IMG/VR virus record: IMGVR_UViG_3300025132_000007 | Location: 1 to 47,023 of that record | From: a virus | Reading direction: 5' to 3' (one strand) | DNA: 47,023 bases | Shown: positions 1 to 47,023 of the stretch, one piece after another | Position numbering within the stretch: position 1 is the stretch's first letter | Layout: each line of letters opens with the position of its first letter | The notes under the pieces: model-generated | Seen by the model: the letters and a program-made list of their open reading frames with translations, nothing else | What the model was told of the DNA's origin: nothing | Databases searched by the model: none | Position numbers and translations under genes: made by a program

Positions 1-99
1 TAAGGTTGTCCTTTATGTTATGATTAAAAAATTGAACCGGGGCGCAACAAGGGCTGAGGTACAGGCTGTACACCTTTTTTCAACGAAAAGTATAGGGTA
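1..99. repeat. Terminal direct repeat, copy 1 (circular assembly overlap)
   Basis: These 99 bases are identical to the last 99 of the window (46925-47023). A perfect end repeat of this length is the usual sign of a circular molecule assembled with a fixed word length, so the natural unit is 46,924 bp. A true packaged terminal repeat cannot be excluded without read-coverage data. The repeat lies wholly inside the leader of the leftward gene that starts at 46925. Confidence 0.9.
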
Positions 100-19122: not shown

Positions 19123-19965
19123 ATGGGATGGTTTGGATACCCAGATGATATGGATCACGATTTTAGTTTTGAATTAGACACAGTTGATTATACCCCAAGT
19201 CCGGGGCTACTTGCAGGCATAGAAGATATTCAAGGAATGGCAGGTGTTCAAAGGGGTGCTGGAAAAGAGTTTCAGCAAGCTTATAGGCAAATGCTTGACC
19301 CCGGTTCTCAATCGTATCAAAGAATGTTTAGTGAGCTTAGAAAGAATGTAGGAGATACTGCTTCGGCTACAATAACAAACACTAACAGAGAGTTAGCAGC
19401 AAGGGGTATAGGCAAAGGCGGTATATCAGGTATGCTAGGTGCTGTAAATATGAATAGAGCGGGAGAACAAATTCGCCAAGGAACTACAAATATTTTGGAC
19501 ATGGGATTAAATAGAGCAAGTCAGTTTGGATCTTTAGCCAATACTGCTTACGGACAAGCGGGACAAATGTATGGACAAGCTGGCGGATTACTAAGCGGAA
19601 TTGATGCTCGTGGTTTACAGGCTAATTTATTTAATGCTGATGCTAGAAATACTTACAATCAGTATCTTGCTATGGCTAATTACAATCAAGACATTGCTAA
19701 CAGAGATGCTAAGTCAGCTTGGTGGGATAATACACTTAGCTTAGGAGCTGATATTGGAGCGGCTTTTTTAACTGGAGGTGCTAGTATTCCAGCTTCTTTA
19801 GCAAATAGAGCATCTGCCTCACCTAGTGCATCCACTCCAAGTATGAGTATGCCCGAATTTGGAAGCTGGCTTAATAATCGAGGTGGTTTATTGCCAAATC
19901 TTGCTAGCGACATAAGTGATTACAAAAATTTTATAGCGAACGAATATAATCCAACAAAGAATTAA
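19123..19965 (+). CDS. Ejection / internal virion protein (280 aa)
   Basis: An Ala/Gly/Gln-rich helical protein with repeated YGQAGQMYGQAGG and a hydrophobic Gly-rich stretch at about residues 205-225 (SLGADIGAAFLTGGA). These traits are typical of P22 gp7/gp20-like DNA-ejection proteins that insert into the host membrane. Strong SD AAGGAG. First of three consecutive ejection-type genes. Confidence 0.7.
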   Translation: MGWFGYPDDMDHDFSFELDTVDYTPSPGLLAGIEDIQGMAGVQRGAGKEFQQAYRQMLDPGSQSYQRMFSELRKNVGDTASATITNTNRELAARGIGKGGISGMLGAVNMNRAGEQIRQGTTNILDMGLNRASQFGSLANTAYGQAGQMYGQAGGLLSGIDARGLQANLFNADARNTYNQYLAMANYNQDIANRDAKSAWWDNTLSLGADIGAAFLTGGASIPASLANRASASPSASTPSMSMPEFGSWLNNRGGLLPNLASDISDYKNFIANEYNPTKN

Positions 19966-19979
19966 AAAGAAAGATAATT

Positions 19980-20990
19980 ATGGCAATGACAGTACCGGGA
20001 CAACAAAGATCAAATACAAGATTTACATTTGGTCAAAGTGATAGATTTCAAAGAGCAATACAAAACAGAATACAAAATCAAATAACTTCTGAAAAAATAG
20101 TAGCAGATCAAGAGTATCGAGATGATTCTTTGCAGTTGCAAAAAGATAGGATTGATGCAGATTCTACCTACAGAGAGAAAATGACAGATTTTGCTCAAAA
20201 AGAAAAAATAGCTAACCAAGAACACAGAGCAAAAGTTTTGAAACATCAACAGTTTTTGCAAACAGAAGCGGTTAATGCAAATGTTAGAAATGATAACTTT
20301 AGAAAAACGAGACTTGGCATTGAAAGTCTCAATACTTATGGTGCTAATATAATTGACGTAGACGCAGATGGTAATGTTTCAGTTCCCCCTGCAGTTGTAA
20401 AAGACTCCTCTGGTAAGTATGTAAGAAATCCAGAATTACCTTCTCAGGTACAAGTAAATGTGAAAGACAAAAGATACGTTACTTTGCAAGAGCTTTCTAA
20501 TCAAGCAAAACTAACTAAAGCAATAGAAGAATTTTCTGGAATAAATACAATAAAAAATATATCTGAAAAGAAAAAAATAGCAGAAAGTTTTGTTTTTGAT
20601 CCTTTTACGCTTGACCCAAAAGAAAAAGGTGGATTTTGGGGAGGCTATTTTAATGAAGAACAAGCTTTAGACAATCTATACAAAGAGAGACAGCGTTGGA
20701 ATTCAATGGCCAATACAGTTAGTGTTCTTGAAAAAGACAATCCTAAAAGAATAGCGGTTCTTTCGGCTTTAAAAAAATTAGCTTACGGGGAAGGTGGATC
20801 CAAAAACGATATACAAGATGATGGTTTAATGCGTACGCCTAAAAAAGAAGAAGGAATGTGGGATACTTTTTGGGATAGGTGGGATATAAAATATAGACCT
20901 ATGTGGGGTTTTGATAGGCAAGAGTATAGATTAAAACAAAAAACATTATCTAATATTCTAAAAGCAAAAATTGCTCAGTTAGAAAAATAA
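19980..20990 (+). CDS. Coiled-coil internal virion protein (336 aa)
   Basis: The N-terminal ~110 residues form a long charged, Gln-rich helix (FQRAIQNRIQNQITSEKIVA, then QEYRDDSLQLQKDRID). A globular region with a terminal coil follows. The position between the other ejection-type genes and the composition suggest an internal head protein that leaves with the DNA. No enzymatic motif seen. Weak SD. Confidence 0.6.
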   Translation: MAMTVPGQQRSNTRFTFGQSDRFQRAIQNRIQNQITSEKIVADQEYRDDSLQLQKDRIDADSTYREKMTDFAQKEKIANQEHRAKVLKHQQFLQTEAVNANVRNDNFRKTRLGIESLNTYGANIIDVDADGNVSVPPAVVKDSSGKYVRNPELPSQVQVNVKDKRYVTLQELSNQAKLTKAIEEFSGINTIKNISEKKKIAESFVFDPFTLDPKEKGGFWGGYFNEEQALDNLYKERQRWNSMANTVSVLEKDNPKRIAVLSALKKLAYGEGGSKNDIQDDGLMRTPKKEEGMWDTFWDRWDIKYRPMWGFDRQEYRLKQKTLSNILKAKIAQLEK

Positions 20991-20996
20991 TAATCT

Positions 20997-23900
20997 ATGA
21001 ACCCATACGAGTTACAGCGTTATATATCTGTATATAATCAAAATCCGTATATATTTGGTGATGACTTTGTAGATGAAATAGAAAAATCTTCTAAAGAATT
21101 TGATATTCCATTTCAGAGAAATATACAAGCTGAAGGCACTAAACAAGACAATTTAGTTAATCAGTTTTTATCAGGTGTATCTTCAGGGTTTACTACATTA
21201 GGATGGGCTGAAGAGCCTACAAGTTCAGCGGGTCAAATAGCACACAGTATGGGGCATTTAATAGGCTTTGCTCCAGCTATTCTTTCAGGACCTCTAGGGT
21301 TTGCCGCTAAAAGAACTGGCGTTAAAGCACTTGGAACTACTGCAAAGTTTCTTAATAGAAAATCAGTTCCTTTTTATCTTGCTGAAAAAATAAATAAACC
21401 TATATACAAAGGCTTAGGCAAAGCTGGTGTAAATGTAGATGAGTATTTAAAGAAGGGTAATGTAATGGCTGACATTGCTACTTCTGCTCAAGAATTGGGT
21501 GTAGCATCTGCAATTAGTAGCGTATGGGGTGGTACTGACGAAGTAATGGATTCTTATGTTCACGGTGCAATATTTGGTGGTGCATTTGGATCTATAGGCA
21601 ACTTTGTCAATATGGGTAAAATGATGAATTCAGCAAATCCCGCAGTTCGCAAAGGTGCTGAAGATTTTATATGGAACAAAGTTGTTAGAGCGGGATTGGG
21701 ATCAGCGGTTCAAGGTGGAATGGCAACTGCTCAAGGCGCACCTACATCTGTTCAGCTTTATGAATATTTATTAGGCGGGTTTTTTGGATACAAGCATCCT
21801 AATGCTAAAGTTAAATCTGGAAGGCAGTATATAGATTCTTTTTACAATAAAGAAAATCACCTTTATGGAGATAAGCTTTTTGGCAAAGAGCGAGAAATGG
21901 TGTACACAGAAGAGTTTAATAATCTTGATCCCGTTGCTAAAGAATACGTTACAAACCATTTTCAAAAAAGTATAGGTGAAAGATTTAAATACTACAATCC
22001 GCAATTAGAGCTATTTAAAGAAGATGACGCATCTGTTGCATCAGTTTTAATGAAAGCTGAATACTTAAATCACTTTAAAGAAGAAAATTTTGCAAAGCGT
22101 AGAAATGAACTTTTAGAAGAACGCAAAAAAGATAAGTTATCTGAAGAAGAAGAAACATTAGCCAAGATTAGAACCTTAGATGATATTGATGCTGAACACC
22201 AAAGATTACAGATAGGAAACATTGCAGCTGAGATTACAGATAAAGTAAATGGATCTAAGTCAAAAATGTCCAAAGAAAGTGATACTATTTATAATAAGCT
22301 AACAAAAGAGCAAAGAGAGGAAATAAAAAAAGGCAATGTAAATGTTGTATATGAAGTAATTAGTGGTTCCAAAGATAGAACTATGGATTTAAAAGAAGCT
22401 CGTGACATTTTAAATCTAGATAGACCTACATCAGATCAACTTGAAATTGATGCTCCTGTACATATACGAAATATGCTTACAGAGATTGAGTCTAATTTAA
22501 AAGTTGAAAAACCACAGTTAGATATTCTTAATGACATTATTGGTATTTACAATGAGTCTAGAAAAAACAGAGAATCTTTTAAAGAATTCTTTAGTCAAAT
22601 AGAAGTTTCTTATCCCGAATATGTTGCAACAAATAAAACAAAAAGAGAGTTAAAATCTTTTTTTAATAGAGTATCTGAAGAAGTACTTCACAATCAAATT
22701 ACTTATGATCCTATAGGCAATAAAATTATATCTATTAGAACTCACGATTTAAATGGAAAAAGAGTAGCAGATAACAAACCTCCAGCATCAGATGAGATTT
22801 ATTTAAAAAACAAAGATGTAGAAGAACCATCTAAGACAACTAAAAAGCGTTCACAAAAAACATTACCCCCTGATTATCAAACTCAAGAATTAAAAACCAT
22901 AAAATGGGGAGATAAAATTCTCAATCTTTACGATAAGGTATATAATTCTGTAACAAAGAAATTTGTCAGAGCTATGGATCGTAAAAAATGGTGGGGATTA
23001 ACTCAAAAAACTGATGAAATAAATGAGTACTACAAAATCCCTAAAAAAGATAAAGGCGTAGAGAGAAAGTTTCCTTATCACCCTAAAGCGATTGAATCTA
23101 AAAATGTAGGTGGTAAAAGAACCTGGACTGTTAATCTTACAGAGTTTGAAAAAATGGTAGCAGATTTAATGAATATTGACCCTAGAACTCGTGAATTTAT
23201 TCAGGCAGATTTTAGAGAATGGAACAAAGAGTATGGGGTAGGAAATAAAGCAAGCACACAGGCTCTTAAAAAAGCTTACGACATTTATCAAAAAGCTTTG
23301 TTATCTAACTATCTGTATGAACCTTTTGCTCAATTTAAAAATGCTCAAGACAGAGTAAAAAGAGAAACTTTAATTGCCGCCACTGGGGTATCTCAAAAAA
23401 TAATTGATAAATATCCTAACTTTGAAATGGTTATAGTTGACGACATTCCTAGCGGTCAGCATAAAACAAATAGTAAAGGCGTAGAACACGAGTTTTTTTA
23501 CACGACAAAGGATGGTAAGACCTTAAGTAAAAAACGCTTATATGAGAGTGAAATAGACGGTTATGGAGTACTTCCTATGGAGCTTTATAATGAGATATTA
23601 AATGCAAATGGATTTGATCTAAGTACGTCTAGAATAAAGCCAACTATTGCCGCTTGGGTTAACGGTGAACTGTTTTTATTTAAAGGTGGCTTTCATCCTT
23701 CAAAACCTGAATATGACGTTGCTTTAAAAAAGCCAAACAGAGCAATTGTAATGCTTAGTGCTGCCAAAGTTATGCCAAAAGGAACTCAGATTTATCACGG
23801 ATTAGCTTCTAAAAATGCAGACGGTTCAGCTAAATACGAATTTAAAAAACGAGGTACAAATAAAACTGTTAAGAACCCAAGATCTATTAAGATTAAAATG

Positions 23901-26900
23901 GAAGATTTACGGATAGATTATGGAGTTCGTGAAGACTCACATTCTATAGAGACTCAAACAATTAAAAAACAGTTTCACGTTTTATTAAACTCACTGCAAG
24001 TTTCTAAAGGCGGTTTTGACGCATTAATGAATACTGCTTTTGCTCCCAATATAGAAGGGAAAACAGAAGCAAATAGAGTTGTTAGAAGTTTATCTGAAAA
24101 TCCTGAAAACCCTATTCCTAATAATTTTAGAATAAAAGATATTGGCGATAAAGAATTTGTTTACCTAGTTAACAATCCCGGTCATCCTTTATTTAGAAAA
24201 CTTTTAATGGATATGATTAATAAGACGAAGTTTAGAGAAGTTTCTGATTCTTTTGGTGAAGAAGCCAGTCTTATTGAACTTAATGATTATGTAAACAGAC
24301 TTCAAAAATGGGCAACTTATTCTGAGTTTAACCCTATTGTTACAATGATAGAGCCTGAACTTTATCAAGATATGGTTCTTCGTTACAGAAAAAACAAATA
24401 TTTATACCCCGAATGGGAATTTTCAGGTGCTATGTGGGGTGCAGGCGTTGATCCCGTTACTAAAATAAAACACGGAGCAATTAAAAAAGGTACATTCAAA
24501 CTAGGTGAAGATGCTGATATTCCTGTTAGTTGGGGAAACAATGAAACCTTACAGAGTTTATGGAAAAAGTATCAGTCTAATTTAAAAAGACTTAAGGACC
24601 CCAAGCTTAAAAAGGACAAGAAAAAACTTGAAGCCCTTAAGACACAAACTGAAACTATTAAAGATGATTTATTAGATATTGCGGTAATGAGAGTTCCGTC
24701 TCCAGCGGTTAGTGGCACTCGAATGCTCATATTTGACGGATTTGTTAAGAATAATGGTAAAAACAAAGATTATGGAGCTTATTTAAACCCCGAAGATCAT
24801 TACTATTTAGATGGTATGGACGTAGATGGCGATAAAGTATTTATATATCAAGGTTTACCCAAAAAGTTTAGAGACACAATTAGAAAAAATAAAGATGAGC
24901 TTTCTATAGATATAAATGGAAAAAAAGCTACTTGGGAAAATAAAGCACCAGACTTAAATAAAGATTTTGGAACTAGAGAAGCTCCTGATTTTATGAAAAG
25001 CAGAATTAGTCAATATTTACCGTTTTCTTTAAGAAAGTCCGGCATTGCAGCCTACGATGGCAAACAAGGTATGGGATCCGTTGTAAATGCAAAAACAATT
25101 TTAAACTTTATGACCGCTGATATTATTGAACAAGGTGGTAAAGTAACTCTTGATTTAATTTCATCTAAAGGAAAAAAATACGGAACTGTAACTCTTGTAA
25201 CAGATGAAGCCACATTAAAGGGCGTAAAAGGGCTACGAAGAATGGCGGTAGAAGCATCGTCAAGAACTGCTGATAGTTCTGAGTATTGGGAAATGATGGA
25301 TGCTTTAGAAATGAGAGATGTTTTGTTAAAAAGTGCCTTTAAAATAATTCACGCTAAAAATCTTAAAGGTAAAAAAATAGATTTTAAATACAATGATATT
25401 AACAATACTCAATACGGTGATCTTGCAGATGTAAATAGCAAACTTTATGGTAGAGATTGGAGAAATAATAAAGCTTGGAGTATAGAAGAAGTTCAAAGAT
25501 CAGTAGAAAACGCATCCTCTAAAGAATACAAAATGAATTCAATATTGTGGCTAGCTAATAAAATGGCTGGTAGCAGTATAGATATACGTTATATAAAAGG
25601 CAATAAAAGATGGAGAGACCATATTAAAACGTATAATGAAGTTTGGAAATCCCCCGAAATACGTCAGTATTTTGCTAGAAAAAAGTTTAAAATAACTCCG
25701 CTTTACCTAGAGACAGATTATGTAGAATTAGAAAAAAGAGTTTTAAAACTGATTGATTCAGAAGAAAGTAAAATGCGTCCAATTGATTCTATATCTGGAG
25801 ACAACCTTAGAGCAATGGGATTAAGGGGAGATAAAAACCTTGATCCTCGTTATCAAAAACTATTTGACCAAGCTTGGAAAGATGGTGTAATAAAACCACA
25901 CGAACCTTTAAAAGAAGCTAAACTGTTAATAAATGATGCTATGGATCTTTATAGCGGTATTGTACTTGGTAAAAAAGGTTCAGAAATTCGTGATTTAATT
26001 ATTGAAAATGGAGGCACAGAAAAACAAGCATTAGACTTTTTAGGTAAACTAGCTGAATTTGCAGTTATACCAAAAGTTCAATACAGAAATAGATCTAAAG
26101 GTTTAAAAAAATCACACGATCCTATGAAGTTTGCTACAGATGATGTAGACAAAGGCATAGCAGAAATTCAAAGAAAAATAAGTAAAGAAGCTAAGGCGTT
26201 AAATATAGACAGGCAAAAAGCATTAGATTACTTTCATTTTTATATGTTAGGGTCAATTTACCCTCAACCATACACAAGCCAACATTCTTTAAAACTACAT
26301 AGAGATTCTATTGTTAAAGAAAGAAAAAAGCCACTAAAGGATAGAGATACTGACTATATACGGTGGGCAGAATCTATAGATCAAAATTGGAATAAATACT
26401 ATAACAAAACAAGCTTTACACGATTTCCATTAGAGTCTAAACAAGTTCCTGAAAGAGTTAAAAAAGAATTTATGAGTGGTTTTGGCAGAATGTGGGATGT
26501 TATTCAAAGCGACCAACCTTTAAACAAAATTAATGAATTTTCAGGGGAAGCATTATATCCTGAAACTGTTAAGTCAAATCAATCGGGTACTAGAACTAGA
26601 AAACAAATAGAAACTAAAGCAGTTTTAGAAAGGTTTTTTGATAATATTTTTAAAGGAAAAAAGATTGAAGATCTTCCTAAGGATGTTATTCCTAAAGACA
26701 TACCAAAGGTTTTAAAAGATTTAATGACCGATCTTAAAAGTATGCCTGAACCTTTTTCTGTAAGGATAGAAGAATTATTTGCGGGATATACGCTAGAGGC
26801 ATTTGGAAAATCTAAAAAAGTATCTAATGCTACTTGGGATGACATTAGAAACTTTCAAAGATTTATTCGCAGAACAAAAGTTTCAGCATCCAACTCACCT

Positions 26901-29900
26901 AAAGTTAAAAAACTTTACTACTATTTGTTCCCCGAACGAGTGGGAGAAAAACAGTTACAATATGATGCAAGTCAAGTATACAAAAGAACCGTTCCTTATG
27001 AGGTTAAACCCGGAGAGATAGCTTTTATTGATATAAGATTGCCTTTTAGTACAATGCAATATTTAAGTGAATCTTTTAATCAGATATACAATTTTGAAAA
27101 TATAGATAAAGAGTACAATCAGGAATACACACAAAGATTTTATGGGTGGCGTGATCAAATACTCGGCATGGAAAATGGCACAACAGAGTTTTCACAATTG
27201 CATAGAGCTGCAATAGCAAAAATGTTAGCAGAAAGAGAATCTGTAGGAAAACAAGGTAGCAAAGCATCTAAAAGAGCTCGTAGAGAATTCTATAGTGAAC
27301 TGTGGGAAGAAAACAGACCTTTTTATGAAAGTCTTAAAGATAAAGTTTATAAAATAACTGAAGGTGGAAAACTTGTAGAAAAGACTGGTGCTGAAGTAAT
27401 GGAATGGATTACAACTAAACACCGAGATTTTTTTAACGGGTTTTATCAAAAATGGATTAGAGCATTAGATAGAGAAGGTAATTCTATTTGGGATAGAATA
27501 GACTCTGAAAACAAGTACGGTATTATTGATGAACTTGTAGAGTTTAATGGCGCGGGTAGAATGAACCTAGAAAAGATAAGAAAAAAACTATTACAACCCG
27601 CATCATTTGGTAAAGGTAGTGTTATAGAAAGATTAATTAACAATTCTTCTTTATCTGTTGATTTATTAAACAGAATACAATATGAGATAATTTTAGAAAA
27701 TAGAGTAATAGAAAAAGGGTATAAGACAGATTCGGTTGAAGCTAAAAAGTTTAGAGAAAGAGTTAGGAAACCGTTGTTATCAAATGGTGAATACAATCCT
27801 CAATCGTATACTTCTGTTGGGTATGTAGAAGAGTTCTATTGGCCTCAGATGGATCATATGGCTACTAAACAAAGTAGAAAAAGAGTAAAAAAATACATCA
27901 ACGAACAAATAGGCATACTTAGACGTGAAGCTGGTCGTTATGCAGATGATTTATTAAATGGAAATGTTGAATCCACCGATAAGTACAGAATTAAAAAACA
28001 ATTTATTACTCAAAATAAACAAAGCGCAGAAGAATTAACTGCTGGCAGACTTACTAAAGAAGAGTTTGTTAATCGTTTCGTTATCCTTCAAGAATATGGA
28101 TTTGAAAGAAGTTTTAACTCTAGCACATTAGAAGATGGAGGTGCAGGGGAGATTGCGTACAAATGGCTTTCAAGTAAAAAGAACAGTAGAGATTCATTAA
28201 AAGATATTGGATTTAATGATAGACCCGGAAGTGGTAGAGAAAGAGGTGAGTCTCCTATGCCAGCTTTTAGTTTAGAATTTGATGTAGTGGAAAATTATTC
28301 ATCTCAATGGATTACTTCTTTTTATAGAAATTTAACTGCACTTGTTTCACACGATGCTATCAATAGATTTTCACAAAAAAATGTACTTTATAAAAAAGAA
28401 GATAGAGAAGATTGGGAAATAATGATGAAGCTTTATGCTAGAGATGTTATGGGCAATGCTTCTGTCTTTGGACCCGATGTTATTGGGTTAAACAAAGATA
28501 AATTAGAATTAACTAAAAAATATATAGCTAATACAGAAAAGATACTTGAAAAAGAAGAAATTAGCTCGGAGCATAGAAAGCATTACGAAGATGCTAAAGA
28601 AACTCTTAAGAAAGATAAACGATTAAAAAAACTAAGAGGTACTGCTTACTTTTGGTTAAGTGATCAACAATGGGGAAAGCTTTTAAACAAGCTTGTTTCT
28701 AATCGAGTTGGAGAAAAATTATTTCCTGATATACCAAAGTCTCCCGATGCTCGTCAAAGATATTTAATGGATGCAGTTAAAAAGATTGGAACATTTGAAG
28801 CAAAATGGTCTTTAATATCTCTTTTATCACATCCTAAAACTGCAGTAGGTAATCTTTTAGGTGGTAATGTTAATACTATATCAAATAATGGGTTACGTCA
28901 TTTTTTAAGAACAAAAGATAAAGCTTTTTTATTTAATGTGTTTAAAGGTGGAAAGCTTAAAGATGGAACTGAAATAACTCAAGATAATGTAACTACTTGG
29001 CTTAATAGATTTGCTGAAGAATCGGGTGCATTAGAATCATTTATTGTATCTGAAGCATCTCTTGAACGGGGGTTTAGAGGAAAGAAAGTAAAAAACTTTT
29101 TATCTGAATTTGTAGAAGCGGTTAGAGCAGATTGGTCTATGCCCGATCAATCTTTATATGACATTGCTAAAAACCACGGTATAAATAAAGCATTTGTAGA
29201 TGGTGGTGCTTGGTTTATGAGAAAGTCTGAAAGAAGTTTAAGGAGAGATTCTTTTCTTTCACATTATTTAGCTAATTATGAAATATTAAAAGATATAGTA
29301 CCTAACCTTAAGTATGACAATCCTTATTTAGTTAGAATGGCTACAGAAGGAGTTAAAGCAACTCAGTTTTTATATCACTCATCTGCTAGACCCGCTTTTT
29401 CAAGAACTTCTACAGGAAAGATTTTAACTAGGTTTATGCCTTTTGCTTGGAACTCAATACGATTTAGAAGATTAGCATTTCAAAGAGCTGCAACATATGG
29501 TTTTGATATGAATACACTTCCGGGTAGAAGACTTCAAAGAATTTTAACACTTGATATGCTTACTTTTGCATTAGCTAATATATTTACTTCATCAATATTT
29601 GATTCAGCTTTACCACCGCCTATGTCTTATTTGCAAGATACTGCTGATTGGGTATTTGGTGATGAAAAAATGAGAGAAAGAGCGTTCTTTAACCAATGGC
29701 CTCACCCTGCATTAGCACCATTATCGACAATAACGGGTCCTTCATTAAGATTGGTTTTAGCACCTACTAAAGCTTTAATAAATAACGATTGGGAACCTTT
29801 TTTAAACTATCAAGCTTGGACTCTTGCTCCTTTTGGTAGGTTTGCAAGAAGTTTATATAGAACTGCAGATGTACCTGAAATGTGGGTAGAAGAACTAACT

Positions 29901-29984
29901 GGGTTTCCTATACATAGATTAGCACAGAAGATGAAAAAATCACGTAAAGAAACAGAAGAAGAATTAACTGAGGTAGAAATCTAA
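20997..29984 (+). CDS. Giant virion protein with putative two-barrel RNA polymerase core (2995 aa)
   Basis: Almost 9 kb, the largest gene here. Residues ~80-265 hold several Gly/Ala-rich hydrophobic stretches, and ~2605-2625 (SLISLLSHPKTAVGNLLGGN) and ~2849-2870 are further membrane-like segments of the kind found in phage ejection/polyvalent proteins. In between are two segments with double-psi beta-barrel RNA polymerase signatures. The first is D854-G-Y-G857, followed by K896-GG and a second conserved-looking Lys, K924 (SAAKVMPKG). The second is R1232-VP followed by DGM-D1275-V-D1277-G-D1279, the DxDGD metal-binding motif of RNA polymerases. The two segments are about 350 residues apart, in the order seen in single-chain two-barrel enzymes. 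A TADS-containing helix follows at about 1425-1430. If right, this is a virion RNA polymerase injected to transcribe early genes. No SD site at the ATG. Confidence 0.7.
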   Translation: MNPYELQRYISVYNQNPYIFGDDFVDEIEKSSKEFDIPFQRNIQAEGTKQDNLVNQFLSGVSSGFTTLGWAEEPTSSAGQIAHSMGHLIGFAPAILSGPLGFAAKRTGVKALGTTAKFLNRKSVPFYLAEKINKPIYKGLGKAGVNVDEYLKKGNVMADIATSAQELGVASAISSVWGGTDEVMDSYVHGAIFGGAFGSIGNFVNMGKMMNSANPAVRKGAEDFIWNKVVRAGLGSAVQGGMATAQGAPTSVQLYEYLLGGFFGYKHPNAKVKSGRQYIDSFYNKENHLYGDKLFGKEREMVYTEEFNNLDPVAKEYVTNHFQKSIGERFKYYNPQLELFKEDDASVASVLMKAEYLNHFKEENFAKRRNELLEERKKDKLSEEEETLAKIRTLDDIDAEHQRLQIGNIAAEITDKVNGSKSKMSKESDTIYNKLTKEQREEIKKGNVNVVYEVISGSKDRTMDLKEARDILNLDRPTSDQLEIDAPVHIRNMLTEIESNLKVEKPQLDILNDIIGIYNESRKNRESFKEFFSQIEVSYPEYVATNKTKRELKSFFNRVSEEVLHNQITYDPIGNKIISIRTHDLNGKRVADNKPPASDEIYLKNKDVEEPSKTTKKRSQKTLPPDYQTQELKTIKWGDKILNLYDKVYNSVTKKFVRAMDRKKWWGLTQKTDEINEYYKIPKKDKGVERKFPYHPKAIESKNVGGKRTWTVNLTEFEKMVADLMNIDPRTREFIQADFREWNKEYGVGNKASTQALKKAYDIYQKALLSNYLYEPFAQFKNAQDRVKRETLIAATGVSQKIIDKYPNFEMVIVDDIPSGQHKTNSKGVEHEFFYTTKDGKTLSKKRLYESEIDGYGVLPMELYNEILNANGFDLSTSRIKPTIAAWVNGELFLFKGGFHPSKPEYDVALKKPNRAIVMLSAAKVMPKGTQIYHGLASKNADGSAKYEFKKRGTNKTVKNPRSIKIKMEDLRIDYGVREDSHSIETQTIKKQFHVLLNSLQVSKGGFDALMNTAFAPNIEGKTEANRVVRSLSENPENPIPNNFRIKDIGDKEFVYLVNNPGHPLFRKLLMDMINKTKFREVSDSFGEEASLIELNDYVNRLQKWATYSEFNPIVTMIEPELYQDMVLRYRKNKYLYPEWEFSGAMWGAGVDPVTKIKHGAIKKGTFKLGEDADIPVSWGNNETLQSLWKKYQSNLKRLKDPKLKKDKKKLEALKTQTETIKDDLLDIAVMRVPSPAVSGTRMLIFDGFVKNNGKNKDYGAYLNPEDHYYLDGMDVDGDKVFIYQGLPKKFRDTIRKNKDELSIDINGKKATWENKAPDLNKDFGTREAPDFMKSRISQYLPFSLRKSGIAAYDGKQGMGSVVNAKTILNFMTADIIEQGGKVTLDLISSKGKKYGTVTLVTDEATLKGVKGLRRMAVEASSRTADSSEYWEMMDALEMRDVLLKSAFKIIHAKNLKGKKIDFKYNDINNTQYGDLADVNSKLYGRDWRNNKAWSIEEVQRSVENASSKEYKMNSILWLANKMAGSSIDIRYIKGNKRWRDHIKTYNEVWKSPEIRQYFARKKFKITPLYLETDYVELEKRVLKLIDSEESKMRPIDSISGDNLRAMGLRGDKNLDPRYQKLFDQAWKDGVIKPHEPLKEAKLLINDAMDLYSGIVLGKKGSEIRDLIIENGGTEKQALDFLGKLAEFAVIPKVQYRNRSKGLKKSHDPMKFATDDVDKGIAEIQRKISKEAKALNIDRQKALDYFHFYMLGSIYPQPYTSQHSLKLHRDSIVKERKKPLKDRDTDYIRWAESIDQNWNKYYNKTSFTRFPLESKQVPERVKKEFMSGFGRMWDVIQSDQPLNKINEFSGEALYPETVKSNQSGTRTRKQIETKAVLERFFDNIFKGKKIEDLPKDVIPKDIPKVLKDLMTDLKSMPEPFSVRIEELFAGYTLEAFGKSKKVSNATWDDIRNFQRFIRRTKVSASNSPKVKKLYYYLFPERVGEKQLQYDASQVYKRTVPYEVKPGEIAFIDIRLPFSTMQYLSESFNQIYNFENIDKEYNQEYTQRFYGWRDQILGMENGTTEFSQLHRAAIAKMLAERESVGKQGSKASKRARREFYSELWEENRPFYESLKDKVYKITEGGKLVEKTGAEVMEWITTKHRDFFNGFYQKWIRALDREGNSIWDRIDSENKYGIIDELVEFNGAGRMNLEKIRKKLLQPASFGKGSVIERLINNSSLSVDLLNRIQYEIILENRVIEKGYKTDSVEAKKFRERVRKPLLSNGEYNPQSYTSVGYVEEFYWPQMDHMATKQSRKRVKKYINEQIGILRREAGRYADDLLNGNVESTDKYRIKKQFITQNKQSAEELTAGRLTKEEFVNRFVILQEYGFERSFNSSTLEDGGAGEIAYKWLSSKKNSRDSLKDIGFNDRPGSGRERGESPMPAFSLEFDVVENYSSQWITSFYRNLTALVSHDAINRFSQKNVLYKKEDREDWEIMMKLYARDVMGNASVFGPDVIGLNKDKLELTKKYIANTEKILEKEEISSEHRKHYEDAKETLKKDKRLKKLRGTAYFWLSDQQWGKLLNKLVSNRVGEKLFPDIPKSPDARQRYLMDAVKKIGTFEAKWSLISLLSHPKTAVGNLLGGNVNTISNNGLRHFLRTKDKAFLFNVFKGGKLKDGTEITQDNVTTWLNRFAEESGALESFIVSEASLERGFRGKKVKNFLSEFVEAVRADWSMPDQSLYDIAKNHGINKAFVDGGAWFMRKSERSLRRDSFLSHYLANYEILKDIVPNLKYDNPYLVRMATEGVKATQFLYHSSARPAFSRTSTGKILTRFMPFAWNSIRFRRLAFQRAATYGFDMNTLPGRRLQRILTLDMLTFALANIFTSSIFDSALPPPMSYLQDTADWVFGDEKMRERAFFNQWPHPALAPLSTITGPSLRLVLAPTKALINNDWEPFLNYQAWTLAPFGRFARSLYRTADVPEMWVEELTGFPIHRLAQKMKKSRKETEEELTEVEI

Positions 29985-31652: not shown

Positions 31653-31923
31653 TTGCCAATATGTTGCCAATCTTAGGATAAATAATTTGTAAAAATCAGC
31701 TGATAATCTATAATTTTATATATGGGGTTTGTGAAATTTCCTCTTAAGGTTATAGAATTGCGAGAGTAGCTCAGCTGGTAGAGCATCACGTTGCCAACGT
31801 GAGGGTCGCGAGTTCGAATCTCGTCTCTCGCTCATCTGTAACTGTACATAATACTGAACTTATAGAAATCACACTTTCCCCGTACCAGTAGATAAATTTT
31901 ACTGGTTGCCAAATAATTGCCAA
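31653..31923. other. Putative attP: paired arm-type sites flanking a tRNA core
   Basis: TTGCCAA occurs five times in 271 bases, all in the same orientation: 31653 and 31664 (11 bp apart), 31791 (the tRNA anticodon loop), and 31906 and 31917 (11 bp apart). Two pairs spaced one helical turn, about 120 bp on either side of a tRNA, have the layout of integrase arm-type sites around a core. A 7-bp inverted repeat (ACCAGTA / TACTGGT, 31884-31906) abuts the right pair and could bind an accessory factor. The crossover point cannot be fixed without host sequence. Confidence 0.65.
31760..31832 (+). tRNA. tRNA-Gly, anticodon GCC
   Basis: A complete cloverleaf can be drawn: acceptor GCGAGAG/CTCTCGC, D-stem GCTC/GAGC, anticodon stem TCACG/CGTGA with loop TTGCCAA (GCC), T-stem GCGAG/CTCGT (one G-U) with loop TTCGAAT, and discriminator T. 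The CCA end is not encoded. It lies 105 bases before the integrase start. It may be both a working tRNA and the attachment core, so that integration rebuilds the host gene. Confidence 0.95.
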
Positions 31924-31937
31924 AAAAGGGGGTAAAA

Positions 31938-32825
31938 GTGCTAAAACCTAACCTATATAGGAATGATAATGGCTTTATATACTATCGTAAAATGATAGAT
32001 AGAAAGCGAGTATCACTTCCAACTCATACCAAAGAAGAAAAAGTAGCTAACAAGTTACATAAGGCTTTAGAGTTTCAAGCTTTAAACAATCTTTATAATC
32101 CTACTGAGAAAATAGCATACTATACTTTTAGGGAGCTGGTAGAAGAATATTTAGCTCATTCGCATGAATGGACTAAAAACAGTAGAAAAATGACAGAAGG
32201 TGCTTTAAGACATTTTTTAAACAAAGGTGTACCTGAAAACAAGAACGCTGCAATCATCGTAAAGGGTAGAGTGAACAGTTGTATTAACTGGGGTGCTAAA
32301 CAAAACATACGAACTAATGTAGTTAAGTTTCAGAAAATAGGATCATCTATACCTAGAACCCGTGTTTTTAATGATGCTGAAATGAAACTAATTCTAAACG
32401 AAACAACACACGATGATTTTAGAAAGTTTATTCACTTTGCTTATTACACAGGTGCAAGACGTTCTGAATTAGAAAATCTTCAATCTTGGGATTTTCAGCC
32501 TTTATATTTTAAAGTAGATGGTAAATCAGGTAGAAGGTTGGTTCGTTTAAACAAACAAGCTAGAATGATTTTATCTGAAAAAGAGGGGATGTGGGAGTAT
32601 AGCGGTGAGTATATGTCTAAGAAGTTTAAAAAGAATCTGCGTAGACTGGAGATTAAGGATGGTAGGTTTCACGATTTAAGAAGAACTTTTGGATACAATC
32701 TAATTGTAAAGAATGACATCCCTATATATAAGGTAAGTAAATTATTGGGACATAGTAGCGTACTTACTACGGAACGTCACTATGCCCCTTTACTTGCAAC
32801 TGATGTTGAGGATTTTATTTTGTAA
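31938..32825 (+). CDS. int: Tyrosine integrase (295 aa)
   Basis: Site-specific recombinase for integration and excision. Numbered from the GTG at 31938, catalytic residues are R174 (TGARRSEL), H245 and R248 (HDLRRTF), H272 (LGHSS) and the nucleophile Y282 (TTERHYAPL). The N-terminal ~45 residues (YRNDNGFIYYRKMIDRKRVSL) resemble the three-stranded arm-binding domain of lambda-type integrases, in keeping with paired arm sites in attP. I chose GTG because AAGGGGG is five bases upstream; the frame is open to a TTG at 31917 inside an arm-type repeat. Bound integrase would cover its own ribosome-binding region. Ends one base before the convergent leftward gene. Confidence 0.93.
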   Translation: MLKPNLYRNDNGFIYYRKMIDRKRVSLPTHTKEEKVANKLHKALEFQALNNLYNPTEKIAYYTFRELVEEYLAHSHEWTKNSRKMTEGALRHFLNKGVPENKNAAIIVKGRVNSCINWGAKQNIRTNVVKFQKIGSSIPRTRVFNDAEMKLILNETTHDDFRKFIHFAYYTGARRSELENLQSWDFQPLYFKVDGKSGRRLVRLNKQARMILSEKEGMWEYSGEYMSKKFKKNLRRLEIKDGRFHDLRRTFGYNLIVKNDIPIYKVSKLLGHSSVLTTERHYAPLLATDVEDFIL

Positions 32826-42312: not shown

Positions 42313-42339
42313 ATACTACAAATTGGACATAATTGTCCA
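42313..42339 (-). promoter_or_regulatory. Leftward promoter overlapping the operator
   Basis: Read leftward: -35 TGGACA (42339-42334, 5/6 of consensus), 15-bp spacer, -10 TAGTAT (42318-42313, 4/6), then AAAAGGAG and the ATG at 42296. The -35 is one arm of the palindrome at 42324-42339, so repressor binding would exclude polymerase. Confidence 0.5.
42324..42339. promoter_or_regulatory. Palindromic operator TGGACATAATTGTCCA
   Basis: Six-base perfect arms (TGGACA/TGTCCA) around a TAAT centre, between two divergent genes, 71 bases upstream of the repressor start. The size and place suit a dimeric helix-turn-helix protein. Only one such site is obvious here, so control may rely on a single operator. 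Confidence 0.7.
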
Positions 42340-43263: not shown

Positions 43264-44958
43264 TTAAACTATATCGTCATAAATAAGCTTCTTATCGAGG
43301 TAAGCTGACTTAACTTCGATACCCTTCCAATCTGCTTCTTTGCTTGTAAATATATCATTAAATGGAAACTTAATACCCATTTGTTCTGTTTTATATTTAA
43401 CAATATCTTTCTTTGAACCCGTTTGCTTAAAAGCATTTCTTAGGTTTGTTGTTGAAATAGCTAAAAGCATATTTTCTTTAATAGTGGTATTTGTATCCCA
43501 ACATAATAAGCACCATTCTTTATAAGACATTGAACCGTCAATCAGTTTTGCAAACCGATCAAGTTCTTGTATGGTGCAACGAAGCATATACTCACGTACT
43601 AAGCAATGAAAAATCTCCTGTGCTAACGCTTTAGGATCGTTATGAGAAATTTCATGTATTCTTTTTAAGTTGTAACCATACTGATGACTTCCAACAGATA
43701 TGTCTTTTAAAGAAATACCATATTCATCTTTCATAATAAACTCTACTTGTTTTTCAGTAGGTTTTCCTTTTCTATAAGTTTCATACAAGTGATCTATATA
43801 TGAATGAACTGTAGCCCTTGCAAACTTCTTTGTTTGAAGATAATATTTTGTTCTTTCAACAGTTTCCTTTGATCCCTCTTTTTTATTTGCTTTAATTTTA
43901 ACAAATACCTGACCATCTTTTAATTCACATCTGCCTACAATCTTATCTATTTCTTTAGGTTTGTTAAACAGTGCTATCATCAGTTCACATAAAGAACTAG
44001 CTCTTGACACATTATCACTCCAGTCATATCGTATATCTGCAACAACTTTTGTTTCAAGCAATCTAGTCCATAGTTCTTTCATTTTCTCGTTAGGATGATT
44101 TGTTAAAGCAAATTTTACAAAACCTATAGTACCGTCATAATCTTCTGTAAACTCTTTAAACAATTGCAATGAATCTTGTCTTTTATTTTGATAAAGAGAC
44201 TGCAATTCTTCGAATTCAGACAATCCTTGACAAAGGTCTATTAAAACATCTTTGCTTTCTTTTATTCCAACCAAGTTTTCATAACGAAGAAAACATTGAA
44301 TTCTATCATCTATACCAAAATAGTCTTTTACATAAGCAGTAAGGCTTTTTGATTTAGAAATCTTAGCAGCCCAGTTCAATGCTTCTCTTTGTATTTGCAA
44401 CGTATTTGTAGCAAACTCTTTCATATCTTTTTTATTAAACTTATCAGAATTAAAAACATAAGGTTTTAACAATTCTTTTGATAAGTTAGAAAAGTGCAAT
44501 CTTTCCTTTACGTAAGCGTGTGAATGACCAAACTTTTCACAGATTTCCTTAATAGTGCTGTCTTTTTTTATCATTTGTTTAAACGCTAGAATTTCCTCTA
44601 AGAAAGATAAATCTTCTCTTAATAGGTTTTCTTCCAACTGAAGGGTAGACAAGTCTCCATTGGGAGCTGGAGAAACAATAACTGGAACTTCTGAAGTAAT
44701 ATTATACTCATTTTCTAATTCCTGAATTGCTTTTAACCTTCTGTGCCCTGCAATAAGGTAATATTTGCCATCTACAGGATCTTTATACACATTTAATGCA
44801 CTTCTTAAACCATTGTTATTAATACTGGTTTTTAAGTTTTTAAATGAGTCTGATTTTGTATCAACGCCCTTACGAACATTGGATACAAATTCTATATTGT
44901 TACTTAATAAGAGTAAAGACTCTTCTGTTTTCGTTACTGTTTTAGTTACGTTTTTCAA
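43264..44958 (-). CDS. ParB/Spo0J-like nuclease-domain protein, long form (564 aa)
   Basis: The N-terminal ParB domain is clear: SNVRKG, INNNGLRSALNVY, IAGHRRLKAIQELE (GHRR at 71-74) and LEENLLREDLSFLEE (109-122). A helix-turn-helix follows at about 135-160 (TIKEICEKFGHSHAYVKERL). The remaining ~400 residues are an all-helical extension I cannot name, much longer than chromosomal ParB (about 280-300 aa). No ParA is encoded, so segregation is doubtful; a regulatory, nicking or CTP-switch DNA-clamp role is more likely. TTG start with AGGAG six bases upstream. Confidence 0.8.
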   Translation of the reverse strand: MKNVTKTVTKTEESLLLLSNNIEFVSNVRKGVDTKSDSFKNLKTSINNNGLRSALNVYKDPVDGKYYLIAGHRRLKAIQELENEYNITSEVPVIVSPAPNGDLSTLQLEENLLREDLSFLEEILAFKQMIKKDSTIKEICEKFGHSHAYVKERLHFSNLSKELLKPYVFNSDKFNKKDMKEFATNTLQIQREALNWAAKISKSKSLTAYVKDYFGIDDRIQCFLRYENLVGIKESKDVLIDLCQGLSEFEELQSLYQNKRQDSLQLFKEFTEDYDGTIGFVKFALTNHPNEKMKELWTRLLETKVVADIRYDWSDNVSRASSLCELMIALFNKPKEIDKIVGRCELKDGQVFVKIKANKKEGSKETVERTKYYLQTKKFARATVHSYIDHLYETYRKGKPTEKQVEFIMKDEYGISLKDISVGSHQYGYNLKRIHEISHNDPKALAQEIFHCLVREYMLRCTIQELDRFAKLIDGSMSYKEWCLLCWDTNTTIKENMLLAISTTNLRNAFKQTGSKKDIVKYKTEQMGIKFPFNDIFTSKEADWKGIEVKSAYLDKKLIYDDIV

Positions 44959-46520: not shown

Positions 46521-46925
46521 TTATCGAACGAGACCATTAGCTGGCTTGATCTTCTGTCCAGCAAGACGCTTGAAGAAACTACCTGCAGTGATCTTACGAG
46601 ATGGGTCTCGTTGGATGAAGAATGACGTTCCCTTGACCACTTCACCAGTTTTCTTACTCACGTACTGGTAAGAACTACTATCAGCCTCACCACGCCACTC
46701 TAACTGGGAACGATATTCTTCCATTCTCTGGAGAATGGCTGGCTGATCAGCTTTATCGCAATCATCCACGAATACGGAAATCTGTGAAGAATCTTCGATG
46801 ATCTGATTCGCTTCAGAGTCAGACATATCTTCCAGAGGCTTTTCGGCAAGTACCTTGTCGAAAGACTGTGTGCGAGAGTTATAGGATGAGAACTTTAAGA
46901 CTAGCTTGTCTAGGTTTATATTCAT
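46521..46925 (-). CDS. First leftward gene: GC-rich protein of unknown function (134 aa)
   Basis: Start at the ATG at 46925 with AAAGGA upstream. An acidic N-terminal half (AEKPLEDMSDSEANQIIEDS, then VFVDDCDKADQ) is followed by a basic, Lys/Arg-rich C-terminus (FFIQRDPSRKITAGSFFKRL). No family recognised. Two sample lines of the gene are 48-50% G+C, against about one third in neighbours, and codons are C- or G-ended far more often. That suggests recent acquisition or selection for very high expression. A strong terminator follows and a long structured leader precedes it. Confidence 0.7.
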   Translation of the reverse strand: MNINLDKLVLKFSSYNSRTQSFDKVLAEKPLEDMSDSEANQIIEDSSQISVFVDDCDKADQPAILQRMEEYRSQLEWRGEADSSSYQYVSKKTGEVVKGTSFFIQRDPSRKITAGSFFKRLAGQKIKPANGLVR

Positions 46926-47023
46926 AAGGTTGTCCTTTATGTTATGATTAAAAAATTGAACCGGGGCGCAACAAGGGCTGAGGTACAGGCTGTACACCTT
47001 TTTTCAACGAAAAGTATAGGGTA
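46925..47023. repeat. Terminal direct repeat, copy 2
   Basis: Exact copy of positions 1-99. It begins at the first base of the start codon of the leftward 134-aa gene (46925), so the gene itself is present once and only its leader is duplicated by the linear representation. Confidence 0.9.

Follow-up and report, generated by a model that had tools for sequence, protein, structure and literature searches.

What does the giant gene at the center of an uncultured phage genome encode, and is part of its product an RNA polymerase? The gene is an open reading frame (ORF) for a 2995-aa protein at positions 20997–29984 (plus strand, as are all parts of the protein listed below) of IMG/VR record IMGVR_UViG_3300025132_000007. 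The whole stretch of DNA analyzed, positions 1–47,023 of that record, is referred to here as the window. A preliminary description of this DNA had noted a two-barrel RNA polymerase signature inside the protein and proposed that the phage packages the enzyme and transcribes its early genes with it. Our analysis divides the protein into an N-terminal part, a central segment with a predicted two-barrel RNA polymerase, and a C-terminal part. The protein very probably contains a two-barrel polymerase core and, by gene order, is a giant ejection protein of the podovirus type, in a layout like that of the virion RNA polymerase (vRNAP) of phage N4. Computation established the fold match, the conservation of residues, the homology to crAss gp66, and the gene context; catalysis, virion packaging, ejection, and an early-gene role are what we infer.

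The residues that make up the signature are all where they had been described, with DGYG at residue 854 (nt 23556), K896 (nt 23682), K924, RVP at residue 1232 (nt 24690), and DVDGD at residue 1275 (nt 24819). DVDGD is the sole DxDGD motif of the protein, against 0.04 expected from composition. Homologues were retrieved from IMG/VR by three scans with patterns free of DxDGD and one scan with patterns including it. IMG/VR has 216 candidate stretches for the lineage; 64 non-redundant cores were read after near-duplicates were removed, and they are 16–89% identical to the window protein. The giant proteins in the IMG/VR contigs are 2.8–3.7 kaa long, and in all loci fetched the giant ORF contains DxDGD wherever the sequence extends to the core (locus L013 holds the C-terminal end only).

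Twenty-one columns are invariant in 64/64 cores: D854, G855, K881, K896, K924, G1021, P1138, L1185, R1232, P1234, G1248, F1249, G1273, D1275, D1277, G1278, D1279, P1342, G1355, D1426, and R1561. The expectation that D1275, D1277, D1279, K896, and K924 would be kept in homologues was therefore borne out. Ten of the 16 residues named beforehand fall on these columns (hypergeometric probability 2.7e-15). Since one retrieval pattern favored columns 1273–1279, we repeated the count without them, and 6 of 11 named residues fell on 16 invariant columns of 1133 (1.2e-9). The proposed DGxG element held only in its first half: DG is invariant, but G857 varies (the homologues have DGY or DGW followed by any residue), so the motif is DG and not DGxG. 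Conservation also extends to residues beyond those first named, including K881 (64/64), K788 (59/59), and R789 (56/59). An additional member, found by an alignment search without the DxDGD pattern in the 89-kb contig of locus L001, is only 25% identical to the window protein. It has DKDGD and keeps the three aspartates and the other predicted catalytic residues, while R1561 is replaced by E.

Next, we modeled residues 656–1795 (22962–26381) using AlphaFold2 with the homologue alignment, which gave a mean predicted local distance difference test score (pLDDT) of 87.7 and a predicted template modeling score (pTM) of 0.79. A Foldseek search of the PDB returned 13 matches with E < 0.001, and 13/13 are the single-chain two-barrel polymerases QDE-1 or RDR2 (3.2e-7 to 7.1e-4). 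QDE-1 is the top match (3.2e-7), RDR2 follows, and bacterial beta-prime subunits appear from 7.8e-3. This confident model thus matches QDE-1 and RDR2 ahead of everything else in the PDB, as the single-chain two-barrel assignment had anticipated; the fold matches are two-barrel enzymes, and the T7-like single-subunit fold was not matched. In a viral structure library, the best matches are A0A516L and A0A516M entries (E 2.5e-29, TM-score 0.54), with crAss-type proteins at 5e-9 to 6.8e-3 and gp66 of phage phi14:2 at 6.8e-3. A model of the C-terminal 1200 residues (pLDDT 72.9), which served as a negative control, had no PDB match below 0.2 and no known ejection fold.

The strand pattern of the model fits two double-psi beta-barrels (DPBB), as judged from the predicted strands alone. 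The predicted first barrel, which is DPBB-B-like, spans residues ~846–979 (23532–23933) and holds D854, G855, K881, K896, and K924. The predicted second barrel, which is DPBB-A-like, spans residues ~1232–1313 (24690–24935) and holds R1232-x-P1234 and the putative metal motif D1275-V-D-G-D1279. Both assignments draw on model strands, 64/64 conservation, and alignment to gp66. A 37-residue helix at residues ~1342–1378 (25020–25130; model helix 687–723), with invariant P1342 and G1355, is a candidate bridge helix.

We then compared the core with gp66 of the crAss-like Cellulophaga phage phi14:2 (PDB 6vr4), using a 65-sequence alignment of gp66 relatives and local profile alignment (hhalign). With template insertions dropped, the alignment has an E value of 1.4e-4 and a score of 52.4 over 423 columns; the best of 40 block-permuted decoys scored 30.2, and reversal of the profile gave 24.0. 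In this alignment K788-R789 (23358–23363) pairs with K893-R894 of gp66, D854 with D962, K881 with K1012, K924 with K1065, R1232-x-P1234 with R1322-x-P1324, G1248 with G1338, G1273 with G1359, and DVDGDK with DFDIDK. K896 is aligned eight residues off K1027 of gp66, and both K881–K896 and K1012–K1027 are 15 residues apart. Because this homology is seen at the profile level with decoys well below it, the two polymerases share ancestry. The phage had been described as packaging a polymerase independently of the crAss-like lineage. That description fits its structural genes but not its polymerase. The window has a capsid of phrog_1328/PF17236 and a portal of phrog_156, whereas phi14:2 has phrog_11589 and phrog_6547. 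The capsid is thus not crAss-like, as had been suggested, and we rejected a crAss relationship by capsid.

Several observations weigh against a two-barrel virion polymerase. The raw-template local alignment to gp66 is weak (P 0.0058, probability 6%). Direct sequence searches of Pfam, PHROGs, and the PDB with the window protein and the alignments identified no polymerase family. Query-normalized TM-scores to QDE-1 and RDR2 are 0.24–0.30, with a large root mean square deviation over the whole segment. We read these low scores as a probable shared core with different domain placement, in which the fold is shared in part or the domains are turned. Furthermore, gp96 and gp64 of Thermus phage P23-45, each compared as one sequence, did not align significantly with the window profile (P 0.044 for gp96), and no phage-specific promoter candidate was found via repeats, a consensus scan, or short-word counts.

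The genes upstream speak to packaging. The order is terminase (phrog_38), portal (phrog_156), SU10-type capsid (PF17236/phrog_1328), and then two genes directly upstream of the giant gene. The first encodes a Gly/Ala-rich protein of 280 aa (19123–19965, plus strand), which by sequence and position is a candidate small ejection (channel) protein. The second encodes a charged protein of 336 aa (19980–20990, plus strand), a candidate second ejection protein on the same grounds. Database searches returned no match for the 280-aa protein and no convincing one for the 336-aa protein. The giant gene is the last of this ejection-like cluster, and the gene order points to a podovirus-type ejection protein, consistent with the earlier view of it as a virion protein. 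We examined context in the window and 14 further contigs (G001–G009 and G012–G016), a subset of the 64; the SU10-type capsid, the phrog_156 portal, and the giant protein are present in 15/15 of these genomes.

The giant protein is conserved over its full length, with blocks of invariant columns at residues ~125–263, 788–1561, and 2486–2971. The N-terminal part (residues ~1–300; 20997–21896) has a Gly plus Ala content of 21.7%, compared to 6.5–12.8% elsewhere in the protein, and its composition and conserved block make it a candidate membrane or channel region. The C-terminal part (residues ~2400–2995; 28194–29981) is the most conserved and is predicted to be all-helical; no known relative of it was found.

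From all of this, we consider it highly probable that the giant gene encodes a podovirus-type ejection protein with a built-in single-chain, DNA-dependent RNA polymerase of the two-barrel type, and that this 2995-aa product is packaged in the virion. By analogy to N4 vRNAP (PMC12633501), P23-45 gp96 (PMC10770324), and crAss cargo proteins (PMC10172136), the protein would travel in the head, leave through the tail, and pass into the cell as a threaded chain, either together with the DNA or before it. Packing, ejection, and membrane passage would be the task of the Gly/Ala-rich N-terminal part and the conserved helical C-terminal part. After entry, the protein would fold again and carry out transcription of the first phage genes. 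Both barrels would form one active site, in which D1275, D1277, and D1279 would hold the catalytic metal and K881, K896, and K924 would come from the other barrel. Later transcription would fall to the host RNA polymerase, because no DxDGD occurs among the other ORFs taken as genes in the complete genome.

Alternatively, the enzyme could be made after infection, to transcribe middle or late genes or to serve in priming, and not be packaged. The fold itself does not imply packaging, as the second two-barrel polymerase of P23-45 is not a virion protein (PMC10770324). Nonetheless, we regard this as improbable: the core lies within a protein of 2.8–3.7 kaa whose N- and C-terminal parts are conserved, the gene is grouped with the structural genes and immediately follows the two candidate ejection genes, and the known polymerases of such layout, crAss gp66, P23-45 gp96, and N4 gp50, are virion components (PMC7886860, PMC10770324, PMC12633501). 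A polymerase that works chiefly from RNA templates, like the RNA-interference enzymes QDE-1 and RDR2, would agree with these two being the closest solved folds. We know of no use for an RNA-templated polymerase in a dsDNA phage, and this option is very unlikely, since QDE-1 also binds DNA templates (7y7r, 7y7s, 7y7t) and gp66, the relative found at the profile level, is carried in the virion and transcribes the early genes of its phage (PMC7886860). Equally doubtful is a decayed remnant, in which the fold is kept as a scaffold of the ejection protein without catalysis. Divergence down to 16% identity would suit such decay, but it is precisely the metal-binding and lysine positions that stay fixed amid this drift, the pattern expected under selection for catalysis. 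Finally, that the motif arose by chance in a giant structural protein unrelated to polymerases would explain the lack of a direct sequence-family match, but it is scarcely credible given the confident model with specific fold matches, the conservation statistics, and the negative control.

What kind of phage carries this probably packaged polymerase? An exact 99-bp direct repeat occurs at window positions 1–99 and 46925–47023, and the record is therefore a complete genome of 46,924 bp, circularly closed or terminally redundant. It seems to be a phage of bacteria from a lineage known from metagenomes alone. A temperate module (31760–32825, plus strand) consists of a complete tRNA-Gly(GCC) at 31760–31833, a candidate attachment site, and an adjoining tyrosine integrase at 31917–32825. 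A repressor-like gene at 42323 encodes a helix-turn-helix protein similar to transcriptional regulators. This integrase-bearing phage also encodes a 564-aa ParB-like protein (43264–44958). Of 16 contigs tested for an integrase, a number of them fragments, 7 have one, and tRNA-Gly(GCC) lies near the giant gene in 3 of 16 other loci scanned (L001, L005, and L017) as well as in the window. Scans of genome contigs confirmed no prophage relatives.

The L001 contig (G001; 88,986 bp) contains two related phages in tandem, with two terminases, two giant proteins, and two capsid genes, and represents either joined prophages or a chimeric assembly. Its second giant protein (L175:1429-10521) has an AlkB-like 2-oxoglutarate-Fe(II) oxygenase domain (PF13532, E 1.5e-25) at residues 1381–1515, starting ~85 residues after the DKDGD motif, as well as a weak DUF4326 match. 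In another member (L010:6260-15970), residues 2646–2739 match the putative molybdenum carrier protein 3imk in the PDB (E 5.7e-5), and a different member, of alignment A6, matches cpYpsA (E 6.4e-12).

A protein search of 50,697 phage records with three members gave no convincing match to a named phage, and we found no paper describing the lineage, though the gene list in Supplementary Data 4 of a survey of two-barrel genes (PMC10770324) may include members. We put at about even the chance that this is a separate uncultured podovirus-type lineage, some of it temperate, that combines an N4-style giant ejection protein with a two-barrel polymerase, that some members carry further enzyme domains in the polymerase protein, and that the enzyme entering with the DNA may set off the choice between lysis and lysogeny before the host polymerase acts. 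These phages add a metagenome-only lineage, with at least dozens of members, to the two-barrel virion polymerases. They are half the size of crAss-like phages and several have an integrase; they therefore allow a test of whether a temperate life cycle is compatible with a packaged polymerase. Furthermore, with their wide sequence spread and small genome, these phages offer new material for defining a minimal residue set of the polymerase common to all cells.

How does this protein compare with known systems? Two-barrel virion polymerases have been described as single chains in crAss-like phages and P23-45 and as multisubunit enzymes in jumbo phages. Such a polymerase is thus not new in itself; what appears to be new is the lineage, its temperate setting, and the combination of a two-barrel core with an N4-like layout. 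QDE-1 and RDR2 are the best solved fold matches, but they are eukaryotic, are not found in virions, and have no sequence match to the window protein. Like the window protein, gp66 is a single-chain two-barrel polymerase within a giant phage protein, with the same invariant residues in the same order. However, it has DFDID in place of DxDGD, and phi14:2 has a 100 kb genome with several large genes, compared to 47 kb with an integrase and one giant gene here. In P23-45 gp96 (PDB 8h2m), too, a two-barrel polymerase, there with DFDGD, forms part of a giant virion protein that is ejected (PMC10770324), but P23-45 is a long-tailed phage, and the polymerase is at the N-terminus of a 5002-aa tail tape measure protein. 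In overall layout, the counterpart is vRNAP gp50 of N4 (Schitoviridae), a podovirus ejection protein of ~3000–3500 aa with an N-terminal part, polymerase, and C-terminal part, accompanied by two smaller ejection proteins (PMC12633501), for which the two upstream genes here are candidates. Since gp50 has a T7-like single-subunit fold and the window protein a predicted two-barrel fold, the shared layout is analogous and not homologous.

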